In this document: positions 36,264 through 62,629 of the stretch, piece by piece
Position numbering within the stretch: position 1 is the first letter of the stretch
Layout of the letters: each line of letters starts with the position of its first letter
Source: Albidovulum denitrificans
GTDB lineage: Bacteria; Pseudomonadota; Alphaproteobacteria; Rhodobacterales; Rhodobacteraceae
DNA length: 64,000 nucleotides
Assembly: GCF_002973535.1 (NCBI RefSeq)
Contig: NZ_PVEP01000001.1
Span: forward strand, 496,001-560,000
Reading direction: 5' to 3'
Notes under the pieces: model-generated
What the model saw: the letters and a program-made list of their open reading frames with translations, nothing else
Database searches by the model: none
What the model was told of the DNA's origin: nothing
Program-made: the position numbers and the translations under genes

Positions 36264-36377
36264 GGTGGTCTCCCTTGTCCTTGGCGGGAAACCTAGCGCG
36301 GTCTGCATGGGATCGGATCACGTTCTTATCTGCTCTTGCCCTTGATATGTGGAAAACTTCCCGCGATAAAGAGGAAT

Positions 36378-36836
36378 ATGGAGAAGATCGACACATTCGA
36401 TGCAAAGATCCTGCGCCTGATCCAGGCCGACGCGGCCCTGCCGCTGGATGAGATCGGGGACAAGGTCGGCCTGTCGCGCAACGCCGTCTGGCGGCGGATC
36501 AAGGCGATGGAGGCAAACGGCACGATCACCGGGCGCGCGGCGCTTCTGGACCCGGCCAAGCTGGGCCTTGGCCTGACCGTCTTCATGATGATCCGCACCG
36601 ACCGTCACGCGCCCGACTGGCTGGAACGCTTTGCGAAGGTGACGCGCGACATGCCCGAGATCCTTGGCGCCTACCGGATGACCGGCGAGCTTGACTACCT
36701 GATCCGCGCCCGCGTGGCCGATGTGAAGGATTACGACCGGCTTTATCAGGCCATCGTCAGCCGCATCGAACTGGCCGATGTCTCGGCCAGTTTCGTGATG
36801 GAAGAGATCAAGGAAACGACCGTTCTGCCGGTTTAA
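36378..36836 (+). CDS. Lrp/AsnC-family transcriptional regulator
   Basis: A 152-residue regulator. The N-terminal helix-turn-helix (DTFDAKILRLIQADAALPLDEIG, then SRNAVWRRIKAMEANG) is followed by a RAM/ligand-binding domain (ILGAYRMTGELDYLIRARVADVKDYDRLY). ATG 36378 has AGAGGAAT upstream. Such proteins sense amino acids. It is divergent from the DUF6356 gene. Its TAA stop is directly joined to an 87-bp palindromic repeat. Confidence 0.92.
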   Translation: MEKIDTFDAKILRLIQADAALPLDEIGDKVGLSRNAVWRRIKAMEANGTITGRAALLDPAKLGLGLTVFMMIRTDRHAPDWLERFAKVTRDMPEILGAYRMTGELDYLIRARVADVKDYDRLYQAIVSRIELADVSASFVMEEIKETTVLPV

Positions 36837-36923
36837 AGCGTTTCGGGTTTTCGCTGAGAAAGTAAGTATCAGAATTTGAACGAAATAAGTTCAAATTCTG
36901 AGTCAGTGTAAACCCGAAATGCT
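36837..36923. repeat. 87-bp nested palindromic element, copy 1
   Basis: Outer arms AGCGTTTCGGGTTT / AAACCCGAAATGCT (one G-T), inner perfect 11-bp arms AGAATTTGAAC / GTTCAAATTCT around a 7-nt loop. It begins at the base after the Lrp stop and contains the stop codon of the convergent glycosyltransferase gene. A second copy at 61814-61900 in opposite orientation has the same length and seven transitions. It may act as a two-sided transcription terminator, but its long conserved unpaired parts suggest a mobile or REP-like origin. Confidence 0.85.
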
Positions 36924-38042
36924 ATGGCGCCCCGCCGCGATGCAGTCCTGATAGAACGCCGCATAGGTCGCGTGGACCTTGTCCGGCTCGAACCGGTCCT
37001 CAAGGCTGCGGGCGCGGGCCGCGGCGCCCAGGCGCGCGCGCAAGGCCTCGTCACCCGCGATCCCCAGCACCGCGCCGGTCAGCCCGTCGATATCGCCCAC
37101 CGGCAGCAGCCGGCCGATTCCCTCATCGACCAGTTCCTTGACCCCGCCACAATCGGTGGCGATCACCGGCAGGCCCGCGCGCATCGCCTCGACGATGGAA
37201 ATCGGCAGCGCCTCCCAGCGCGAGGTCAGAAGGTAGATGTCCGCGGCGGCGAGGTAGTCCGGCACGTTGCGCACCGGGCCGGGAAAGCGGAAATGGCGCG
37301 CGACGCCCGCCTCTTCGGCCCAGGCCTGCACCTCGCCCGTCAGCGGCCCCTGCCCGGCGACGCAGAAGATCAGGTCCGGGCGGGTTGCCACGGCCGCCTT
37401 CGCCACCGCGATCATATGGTCGATCCCCTTCTGCCGGTCCAGCCGCGACAGGCTAAGGCAGATGGTCCCCTCCCCGCCTTGCAGGATCTCCGCCCGCAGC
37501 GCCGCGACACGGGCCGGATCGGGGGCGGGCTGATGCGCGATGCCAAGGCCAAGCTGGCGCGCGCGCTCCGGCTTCACGCCGCGATCGACCAGCGCCGCCA
37601 GCGTCGTCTTGCTGGGCGACAGCACCCAGTCGGCCGAAAAGCGCGCGATCCGCGCCACCTCATCCACGCGCGTGGGTTCAGCGCCGTGATGGGTCATCAC
37701 ATGCGGAATGCCCAGCCCCATGGCGGCGAGCCGGGTCACCAGCGCCGGGGCCGTCTCATGCGAATGGATCAGGTCGATGTCGGACCGTTTCAGGATCGCG
37801 CGCAACTGCCGCGCGACCGCCGCAAGCCCGATCATACGCCGGACGGTCGATCCGCCCTCTTGCGACACCCGCGTCAGGTCGAGCGGCTGGTAATCCATCC
37901 CCGCCACGTCCTCAAGCCAGTCGCCCCCCGCACCGCAGAGCGTGACCCGATGCCCCTGCCCGCGCAGATAGTCCGTCAGGTCGAGGATATGGCGCTGAAT
38001 CCCGCCCGAACGGAAATTGGTGTTGATCTGGAGAATGCGCAT
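36903..38042 (-). CDS. Glycosyltransferase family 4 (GT-B fold)
   Basis: A 379-residue transferase. N-terminal FRSGGIQRHILDLTDYLRGQGH is the GT4 acceptor-side start; the C-terminal donor domain has the E(x7)E motif in SRWEALPISIVEAMRAGLPVIATDCGG. It should move a sugar from a nucleotide donor in cytoplasmic glycan synthesis. It is first of a group of genes for glycan or nucleotide-sugar work. The last residues (SISGLH) and the stop lie inside the palindromic repeat, so the natural C-terminus may have been changed by the repeat. Confidence 0.9.
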   Translation of the reverse strand: MRILQINTNFRSGGIQRHILDLTDYLRGQGHRVTLCGAGGDWLEDVAGMDYQPLDLTRVSQEGGSTVRRMIGLAAVARQLRAILKRSDIDLIHSHETAPALVTRLAAMGLGIPHVMTHHGAEPTRVDEVARIARFSADWVLSPSKTTLAALVDRGVKPERARQLGLGIAHQPAPDPARVAALRAEILQGGEGTICLSLSRLDRQKGIDHMIAVAKAAVATRPDLIFCVAGQGPLTGEVQAWAEEAGVARHFRFPGPVRNVPDYLAAADIYLLTSRWEALPISIVEAMRAGLPVIATDCGGVKELVDEGIGRLLPVGDIDGLTGAVLGIAGDEALRARLGAAARARSLEDRFEPDKVHATYAAFYQDCIAAGRHSISGLH

Positions 38043-61753: not shown

Positions 61754-61788
61754 AAAAGGCCCCGTCCCTTGCGGGATCGGGGCCTTTT
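61754..61788. terminator. Bidirectional rho-independent terminator between rsmA and DUF4167 gene
   Basis: AAAAGGCCCCG / CGGGGCCTTTT, a perfect 11-bp stem, with a further TCCC/GGGA pair inside. An A-run on one side and T-run on the other make it work in both directions. It serves the plus-strand operon ending with rsmA and, past the palindromic repeat, the minus-strand DUF4167 gene. Confidence 0.85.
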
Positions 61789-61813
61789 GTCGTCAGGCTT
61801 TTGCGCGCCTTAT

Positions 61814-61900
61814 AGCATTTCGGGTTTACACTGACTCAGAATTCGAACCTGTTTCGTTCGAATTCTGATACTTACTTTCTCAACGGAAACCCGAAATGCT
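61814..61900. repeat. 87-bp nested palindromic element, copy 2 (inverted relative to copy 1)
   Basis: Outer arms AGCATTTCGGGTTT / AAACCCGAAATGCT are perfect; inner arms AGAATTCGAAC / GTTCGAATTCT are perfect, 11 bp, around a 7-nt loop. It begins at the base after the DUF4167 TAA stop, like copy 1 after the Lrp stop. Compared with copy 1 the inner stem has T-A changed to C-G on both arms, so pairing is kept. Confidence 0.85.
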
Positions 61901-62629
61901 TTAGTCTTCCGTCGCGACCGGCGCGGGGGCGGCTTCGCCCTCACCCTCGGGCTTCGCCTTGGGCTTGCGCGGGCGGCGTTGAGCGGGTTTGCGGGCCGGT
62001 TTTTCCTCGGCCGCAGCGGCCTCGGCAGCCGGGGCGGCGCTTTCGGCCTGCGACAGGTCCGGCATCATGCTGGCGCGCGGGGCCGCGTCCATCCGCGCCT
62101 CGGGCGTGTCGACAAGGCCGGGGCCGTCATCCTCGGCCCGCGTCTCATCAGGCGTGTCGGCGGGCGTATCGGCGCGGCGCTGATCCTCGGCGCGGGGACC
62201 GCGCTGATCCTCGCCCCGACGGCGGTTCTGCTGGTTGCGCTCGCCGCCCTGACGCTCCCCCCCCTGACGGTCGCCCCGGTCATCGCCGCCATGGCCGTTG
62301 GCCTGAGCGTTCTGACCGTTGCCGCCCTGATGGCCGCCGTTATTGTCGCCATTCTGCTGTTGCTGCTGCTGGCGGCTTTCCTGCTCGCGCAGCGCCTCAC
62401 CCAGCATGCGGGTGTAATATTCGGCGTGCTGGAGGAAGTTCTGTTCCGCCACGCGGTCGCTGCCAAGCTGCGCGTCACGGGCCAGTGCCAGGTACTTGTC
62501 AATGATCTGCTGCGGCGTGCCGCGGACCTTGCCTTCGGGGCCGGAGCTGTCGAAGACGCGGTTGACGATGTTGCCAAGCGAACGCTGCCGGTTCGACTTC
62601 GACCGCGAGCGGTTTTTCGATGATCTCAT
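61901..62629 (-). CDS. DUF4167 domain-containing protein
   Basis: A 242-residue protein. Residues 1-about 85 form the conserved DUF4167 domain (KNRSRSKSNRQRSLGNIVNRVFDSSGPEGKVRGTP, then a helical AEYYTRMLGEA). The rest is low complexity: a Gln/Asn/Gly-rich stretch at about 85-135 and an Ala/Pro/Lys-rich tail. The basic N-terminus suggests nucleic-acid contact. The function is unknown; the family is confined to alphaproteobacteria. The 253 bp upstream, to prmC, show nothing I recognise beyond a likely promoter region. Confidence 0.9.
   Translation of the reverse strand: MRSSKNRSRSKSNRQRSLGNIVNRVFDSSGPEGKVRGTPQQIIDKYLALARDAQLGSDRVAEQNFLQHAEYYTRMLGEALREQESRQQQQQQNGDNNGGHQGGNGQNAQANGHGGDDRGDRQGGERQGGERNQQNRRRGEDQRGPRAEDQRRADTPADTPDETRAEDDGPGLVDTPEARMDAAPRASMMPDLSQAESAAPAAEAAAAEEKPARKPAQRRPRKPKAKPEGEGEAAPAPVATED

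Follow-up and report, generated by a model that had tools for sequence, protein, structure and literature searches.

Background

IS630 reportedly favours CTAG targets, to judge from the title of a 1991 article by Tenzen and Ohtsubo that is cited in PMC2170065. ISY100, of the same family, is described as inserting almost only at TA dinucleotides, which are duplicated (PMC2170065). RUP, from Streptococcus pneumoniae, is given as a 107-bp element present in 108 copies, linked to IS630-Spn1 and targeted to TA (PMC2229807, PMC3049150). RUP, BOX and SPRITE are described as over-represented between convergent pneumococcal genes, and BOX as supplying an annotated gene with its stop codon in 36 cases (PMC3049150). 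MITEPlu5 is reported as a 123-bp element with a strong hairpin, hundreds of copies, a TA duplication and IS630-type ends, and as related to ERIC (PMC6267812), whose orientation is said to affect its effect on transcripts (PMC2229807). Finally, MITEPsy1 of Pseudomonas syringae is described as a 100-nt MITE with six copies, a CTAG or YTAA target, a 4-bp duplication and ends like those of ISPsy2, which is listed as 'IS5?' (PMC3189936).

The window analysed here (64,000 nucleotides of Albidovulum denitrificans, referred to as the host) carries two copies of a repeat, 89 bp long, that is very probably a MITE, a DNA transposon without an enzyme of its own, of the IS630/Tc1-mariner type. This reading follows from its inverted ends, the duplication of TA within a YTAR target, the dispersal of its copies, the existence of element-free orthologous sites and the presence, in another genome of the family, of an IS630-family insertion sequence with similar ends and the same target. 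As far as ISY100 and IS630 are described in the sources used, the element resembles them in its TA target and duplication and its CTAG-like preference, and its ends are similar to those of an IS630-family element in another genome of the family. It differs from insertion sequences of this type in being 89 bp long and devoid of a transposase gene, and no autonomous partner of its own subfamily was found in the host or in 22 genomes of the genus. By analogy it is best read as a member of the class of RUP and ERIC/MITEPlu5. It is comparable to RUP, as the latter is described, in size, copy number, IS630 link, TA target and convergent placement; however, no sequence relation is shown, the proposed partner of RUP resides in the same genome, and the exact placement at stop codons seen here is not part of the RUP description consulted. 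ERIC and MITEPlu5 differ from it in sequence and host class, and the present element is known from sequence alone. BOX is modular, and insertion at the TA of a stop codon does not figure in the portion of its description used here. MITEPsy1, on its partial description, resembles the element in size and target but not in its 4-bp duplication, ISPsy2-like ends and six copies. The element is apparently an orphan IS630-family MITE forming a new family of a known kind. Its association with stop codons is unusually strong, and in the host species it shows an unexplained bias of orientation. Rfam gave no match at gathering scores across the window and none at E ≤ 1 around copy 1. Among the open-access papers listed for Rhodobacteraceae MITEs, Roseobacter REPs, Rhodobacter IS630 elements or MITEs and stop-codon regeneration, no title or abstract opening describes it. 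A repeat family with no match in Rfam or among these papers thus acquires a concrete identity, together with a rule of insertion and a probable autonomous relative.

Two copies in the window

Copy 1 (36837-36923, forward strand) and copy 2 (61814-61900, reverse strand) are 87 bp long each and differ at seven positions (4, 15, 18, 41, 50, 52 and 57), all transitions, exactly as the initial annotation had described them. At positions 41 and 57, one copy has T-A where the other has C-G. Both the outer arms, of 14 bp, and the inner arms are paired in each copy, and the sense strands are predicted to fold at -43.9 and -40.9 kcal/mol (z of -11.0 and -8.2). The 87-bp unit delimited in the initial annotation is exact as a repeat, but one more base belongs to each end, giving an element of 89 bp bounded by TA.

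Copy 1 (A + 87 bp + A) therefore extends over 36836..36924 on the forward strand, a delimitation based on the flank consensus YTA-[A..A]-TAR over 93 genome copies and on element-free sites at the loci of other copies in relatives. The left TA of its target duplication (36834..36835) forms, with element base 36836, the TAA stop codon of a gene for an AsnC/Lrp-type regulator (36336-36836, Pfam AsnC_trans_reg). On the right, TG at 36925..36926 is read as a decayed TA, since the flank is ATGG here, whereas 67 of the 93 copies have ATAG or ATAA. Within the element, the left outer arm AGCGTTTCGGGTTT (36837..36850, forward strand), interpreted as the outer portion of the terminal repeat on the left, pairs with the right outer arm AAACCCGAAATGCT (36910..36923). 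Between them lies an inner hairpin with a 13-bp stem and a 7-nt loop (36869..36901). This hairpin is absent from two short copies of 43 bp elsewhere in the genome (L155 on C3 and L157 on C1), which have lost the linker as well and retain the outer arms with short inner parts. An open reading frame for a glycosyltransferase (Pfam Glycos_transf_1) runs on the reverse strand from 38042 to 36903 and ends inside copy 1, at a TGA in 36905-36903.

Copy 2 (locus L038) extends over 61813..61901 on the reverse strand. The local sequence places its left TA at 61902..61903, where, together with base 61901 of the element, it makes up the TAA stop of a DUF4167 gene (61901-62629), and its right TA at 61811..61812, giving a reconstructed target CTAA.

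Copy number and boundaries

Searching the host genome (4,107,985 bases or 4.11 Mb, 23 contigs) for the core GAGAAAGTAAGTATCAGAATT with at most three mismatches identified 93 places, against none for the reversed control. A search with the full unit returned at least 41 near-full-length copies, the best 40 of 110 candidates being scored. Matches to the arms added 12 diverged or shortened copies, and all 93 core-pattern copies and these 12 were fetched and inspected. The total is therefore at least 105; the initial annotation had named a genome-wide total of only two as an observation against its reading. Terminal repeats were found at 109 and 103 places; among the first 100 listed, the 12 places or pairs inspected because they lay outside the 93 copies were all small elements.

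The flanks define the boundaries. On the left, a pyrimidine occupies position -4 in 85 of the 93 copies, and T (85), A (86) and A (87) come next; on the right the succession is A (79), T (85), A (83) and then G or A (91), and no comparable conservation is observed further out. The unit thus reads Y-TA-[A-87-A]-TA-R, an 89-bp element with TA duplicated within a YTAR target, and TA is preserved on both sides in 66 of 93 copies. Elements of the IS5 type follow a 4-bp duplication rule. A 4-bp YTAR duplication of this kind was rejected, as the right flank usually reads ATAR and not YTAR, so that only TA is duplicated. An outer stem extending through the flanks was also rejected, since the Y and R that border the element show no covariation: the combinations in 66 copies are C/G 24, T/G 22, C/A 13, G/G 3, A/G 3 and T/A 1. 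The element is short and noncoding, has terminal inverted repeats (the 14-bp outer arms), is dispersed in 93 + 12 copies and shows both a target-site duplication and orthologous sites that lack it.

Two inverted copies about 1.1 kb apart surround a single Rhodanese-domain gene (L022:313-1587), an arrangement resembling a composite unit. Some complete copies are separated by 1.1-1.4 kb, and no transposase is found among the five genes enclosed by three such pairs (Rhodanese, HNH, Glyoxalase, PRA-CH and one without Pfam match).

Element-free orthologous sites

The flanks of 18 loci were joined without the element and the first 15 (3,885 nt) were searched against the host genome and 21 other genomes of the genus. 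This returned 30 loci, two of them in the host and 28 in other species. At 12 of these 28 (L124-L127, L129-L131, L134, L145 and L147-L149), TA stands precisely at the reconstructed junction and the element is absent. They correspond to three host loci: L104 ten times (nine reading TA|GG), L034 once (L148) and L074 once (L125). The cleanest is L148, which reads GGCTA|GGCAA at the L034 locus (TTCCGGCTA|GGCAAGGGCC) and is the sole alignment free of gaps across the junction in the stretch shown. The other 16 have no TA at the junction, mostly owing to indels or other stop codons: L120, L132 and L143 (stop-codon loci L074, L079 and L023) carry CTAG beside a small alignment gap, two relatives (L121 and L123) have TGA at the L078 locus, and the remainder show indels or no TA. 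The presence or absence of the 87-bp form thus differs between species. This is an indirect sign that it may be mobile, as are, for a 109-bp form, four relatives of 99-100% identity with different flanks in genome G228 (see below).

An old insertion shared with genome G009 at the L009 locus was considered and rejected, the insert of about 86 bp found there being unlike the element. The L104 copy (contig C11, near 71911) precedes a called gene by about 20 bp. It sits at a TAGGATC motif that most of the element-free relatives retain; by its position, this insertion may possibly have altered the leader or promoter of the downstream gene.

Ends shared with an IS630-family insertion sequence

Genome G228, from another genus, carries four relatives of the element, 109 bp long (three identical, one at 99%), in four unrelated contexts with the same TA arrangement. 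It also contains 111 matches to DDE_3, the IS630 transposase domain. Those inspected (L253, L257 and L261-L276) come from at least two IS630-type elements, and their abundance looks like a recent burst of insertion sequences. The boundaries of one such insertion sequence of 1051 bp were mapped on seven copies. Its ends are YTA-A|AGCGTTTCGACATTAACCTGAGACAT and GATTCAGGTTCAAGCCGAAACGCT|T-TAG; it starts YTA-A|AGCGTTTCG...TGAGACA and finishes GATTCA...CGAAACGCT|T-TAG. The flanks YTAA and TTAG occur at 14 loci, with the full 1051 bp at 13 of them and the ends of two neighbouring copies paired at the fourteenth. The YTAR flanks of the small element thus recur at all 14 loci inspected. The open reading frames match DDE_3 (E 2.4e-28) and, below the curated cut-off, HTH_Tnp_Tc3_2. 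The 87-bp consensus agrees with one end of this insertion sequence at 17 of 26 positions and with the other at 19 of 24 (36 of 50 in sum), while 20,000 shuffles gave at most 25 of 50 with the host consensus or 26 of 50 with that of the relatives.

The 17 of 26 identities concern the left end, where the outer arm (compare AGCGTTTCGGGTTT with AGCGTTTCG) is followed by the left linker (36851..36868 in copy 1, forward strand). The initial annotation had remarked that a terminator role alone would leave this unpaired, conserved segment unexplained. An account of the segment can now be offered: its beginning is read as the inner part of an IS630-like left terminal repeat (TGAGA, compared with TGAGACA). 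In the relatives, sequence diversity is 0.42 in the left linker and 0.07-0.11 in the arms.

DDE_3 has no match in the host genome, in a search that was positive in three of 14 control genomes, and an autonomous copy in the same genome was accordingly rejected. In the genus, six DDE_3 loci from four of 22 genomes were found and none has these arms; one of them, in G009, begins TAAAGCCATTTGCATTTAATCTGAGACAT and has related but different ends. Since no DDE_3 element in the host or the genus matches the arms, the link to IS630 rests on the partner from the other genus. The ends are shared with the DDE_3 element of G228 and with no element of the host genome. The inner terminal sequence of this candidate partner differs from that of the element. 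Moreover, DDE_3 is present in four of nine element-bearing genomes and absent from five, so the presence of the element does not track that of the enzyme. Given that no IS630-family transposase was found in the host, its copies are probably immobile now and decaying, and may be fossils.

Distribution in relatives

Of the 21 other genomes searched in the genus, eight gave BLAST matches to the element; none of 39 more distant genomes did. Pattern searches matched Defluviimonas aestuarii (now Albidovulum aestuarii; Paracoccaceae, Rhodobacterales), Defluviimonas sp. WL0050 and two MAGs. Copy counts in relatives are minimal values, with up to 14 copies scored per genome in addition to the pattern-search places. 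Two pairs of copies, L203/L224 and L184/L207, are apparently orthologous between species by the lengths of neighbouring genes; the members of the first are nearly identical, and those of the second differ by symmetric replacements in the arms of one species.

A covariance model built on 41 copies from other species gave matches at E ≤ 0.001 in 31 of the 295 genomes searched in the family, or 30 of 294 by genus; 29 of 293 genomes of other genera are among them. In a class-wide draw, three of 289 genomes matched at E ≤ 0.0001, one of them from another family. Eighteen of the 29 matches in other genera were inspected (L229-L246, 18 genera), and they have an architecture in common but not a sequence. 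Their arms begin with AGCGTTTCG or a near variant, most have TTGA.../GATTCA-like linkers around the inner hairpin, and the inner hairpins differ. TA is found on both sides in 13 of the 18. The orientation given to some of them is arbitrary because the model is nearly palindromic. Lengths of 87, about 98 and 109 bp recur among them. These steps of about 11 bp correspond to roughly one turn of the DNA helix, which might mean that the relative phase of the two ends matters.

Conservation of the palindrome

The exchange of T-A for C-G at positions 41/57 had been taken in the initial annotation as a compensatory change indicating selection on an RNA or cruciform fold. In 90 of the 93 host copies this pair is C-G 54 times, C·A 27 times, T·G five times, T-A three times and A·A once, and the two positions are not associated (Fisher p = 1.0, on 88 of the 89 aligned copies). 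The apparent compensation is the coincidence of two independent polymorphisms in the window pair. The annotation had itself named many copies with uncompensated arm changes as an observation against it, and such changes are what this pair shows. One compensatory change between two copies of a palindrome is therefore weak evidence for selection on RNA.

In the host alignment as a whole (89 of 93 copies; L042, L086, L094 and L117, shifted by indels, are omitted), the covariation score is 0.052 compared with 0.048 in shuffled alignments (four of 500 as high), and both sides have changed in six pairs compared with 2.8 (five of 500 as high). The excess is thus slight. Departures at pairs with a Watson-Crick consensus are G·U in 45 cases and A·C in 77, or 38 and 40 without pairs 41/57 and 1/87; the figures in relatives are 36 and 42. 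Selection on RNA should favour G·U, and in this respect the copies within the genome give no indication that an RNA fold is selected. Three pairs (4/84, 17/71 and 18/70) have a G·U consensus in the host, which excludes them from this count, and they do speak for selection on RNA.

Comparison between species gives a different picture. In the 41 aligned copies from other species (the 87-bp rows among 47), both sides have changed in 10 pairs compared with 4.8 in shuffled alignments, and the covariation score, 0.090 compared with 0.068, derives chiefly from the inner stem; none of 500 shuffles was as high on either measure. Relatedness alone can exceed shuffles in such a test, and controls with slid pairing gave 5-11 both-side-changed pairs and a score of at most 0.073. 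Pairs 33/65, 35/63 and 37/61 of the inner helix covary across species. In the 18 elements of other genera, both arms differ from those of the host, yet 12-14 of the 14 outer positions pair. A middle helix (16-21/67-72) was considered and rejected, as it is poorly paired in relatives. The palindromy is therefore conserved between species while the sequence changes. The statement in the initial annotation that this is a real palindrome rather than a simple repeat holds; the particular evidence that it gave for a selected fold, the change at 41/57, is not supported.

Symmetry of transposon ends, templated mutation of a hairpin or selection on structure could each be sufficient to conserve the palindrome. 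The second of these, in which compensated arm changes arise by template switching in a quasi-palindrome during replication and not by selection, is compatible with the element being a MITE, and we hold it to be a serious possibility, though somewhat short of an even one. In one host copy (L101:1482-1568) the inner loop is inverted with respect to the other copies, which suggests hairpin-mediated inversion or template switching. Symmetric replacements of two pairs distinguish L207 (AAAAG/CTTTT) from L184 (ATCAG/CTGAT), seemingly at the same locus, and L203 and L224 carry CTGGATTC/GAATCCAG. However, these events are inseparable here from selection on the symmetry of transposon ends or on structure.

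Stop codons, gene context and orientation

Genes were called with a simple codon-usage caller trained on the 64-kb window and not retrained for the relatives. On these calls, 61 of the 93 host copies start exactly after the in-frame stop codon of an upstream gene in sense. By comparison, six of the 27 non-coding YTAR sites of the window are stop codons (p = 1e-4; 10 more YTAR sites are coding), a baseline taken from one 64-kb window and the same simple caller. Stop codons are thus struck more often than the availability of YTAR predicts. The copies lie between convergent genes in 56 cases, in sense in tandem pairs in 30, between divergent genes in four and in antisense in tandem pairs in two, one copy having no called downstream gene. 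The convergent share, 56 of 92, exceeds that of neighbouring gene pairs in the window (12 of 58, p = 2e-6), and the upstream gene is in sense for 87 of 93 copies.

Where the right flank is TAR, the codon present before insertion was TAR, already a stop, and the first A of the element makes it TAA. An element that starts with A consequently leaves the upstream protein unchanged after sense insertion at a TAR stop. In reverse orientation, the frame reads TAT AGC ATT TCG GGT TTA CAC TGA, that is seven codons before a stop. This -21 arrangement is observed for the right-hand gene in seven of 56 convergent copies, including copy 1, where seven codons separate the insertion site from the stop of the glycosyltransferase frame.

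These observations are consistent with the following scheme for a MITE. An IS630-family transposase, itself inferred, would once have cut and pasted the element in trans into the TA of YTAR. In this G+C-rich genome such sites are few, and some of the non-coding ones are the TAG or TAA of stop codons. Sense insertion would turn the TAR stop into TAA with the same upstream protein, antisense insertion would add seven codons before the TGA inside the element, and selection against harm would leave copies at the 3' ends of genes, mostly in sense. Such a transposon would be nearly harmless, as it rebuilds the stop codon that it strikes, making gene ends safe landing sites. For annotation, it means that the last base of many host stop codons and some C-terminal tails of seven codons derive from the element.

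In tandem pairs the host copies are oriented 30:2 in favour of sense (p = 2.5e-7). The bias persists away from stop codons (15:2, p = 0.002), where it is unaccounted for by stop regeneration. In the relatives the tandem ratio is 13:10, which differs from that of the host (p = 0.002), and 45 rows show 14 sense and seven antisense stop contacts (two L225 rows, a single ambiguous element read both ways, are excluded). In the host, folding of the sense strand is more favourable than that of the antisense strand by about 6 kcal/mol (in 80 of 89 copies), and in relatives by about 1 kcal/mol (27 of 41), which links orientation and fold in the host species.

It could be proposed that the MITE was inserted by transposition and that its sense copies were then kept in the host species for a benefit at 3' ends. 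The 15:2 bias, the difference in orientation between host and relatives and the larger fold asymmetry in the host argue for this. On the other side, no sign of pairing constraint is found within the copies, the bias may result from selection against harm rather than for benefit, and the gene calls come from the simple caller mentioned above; we regard such co-option as unlikely. A more specific form would be a lineage of MITEs adapted to gene 3' ends, which homes to stop codons and restores them with its first base. Copies would be retained in the host species almost exclusively in sense because the hairpin, once transcribed, affects the message upstream, and the host would thereby have some hundred 3' ends of uniform structure. 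This appears to us equally doubtful.

Less probable still, and in our judgement decidedly improbable, is that the repeat is primarily a selected RNA, a sense-strand hairpin at the 3' ends of messages that terminates transcription or protects the message and whose compensatory changes are selected. The strength of the fold (z -11.0), its sense asymmetry, the predominance of sense copies downstream of genes, the three G·U-consensus pairs and the cross-species covariation of the inner stem would all agree with it. So would a terminator-like feature of both window copies on the antisense strand of the element, the A+T-rich inner hairpin followed by TACTTACTTT, which terminator prediction calls at both; the sites called altogether number one at copy 1 (0.6 in shuffled sequence) and four at copy 2 (0.9). 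However, pair 41/57 does not covary, departures from pairing show no preference for G·U, neither window copy has a T-run after its outer stem, the orientation bias is weak in relatives and the element is absent at orthologous loci. About 20 bp away from copy 2 there is also a GC-rich stem that carries T-tails on either strand. The hairpins are the symmetry of a transposon and no demonstrated regulatory RNA. A palindrome of the REP/REPIN type mobilised by a RAYT (Y1) transposase, suggested by an extragenic palindrome in about 100 copies 3' of genes, is extremely improbable given the TA duplication, the IS630-type ends and the lack of any Y1_Tnp match in the genome, in a search positive in five of 14 control genomes.

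The stem next to copy 2 (61754-61788) lies between rsmA and the element and consists of AAAAGGCCCCG...CGGGGCCTTTT with AAAA and TTTT flanks. From its sequence it looks like an ordinary bidirectional intrinsic terminator.
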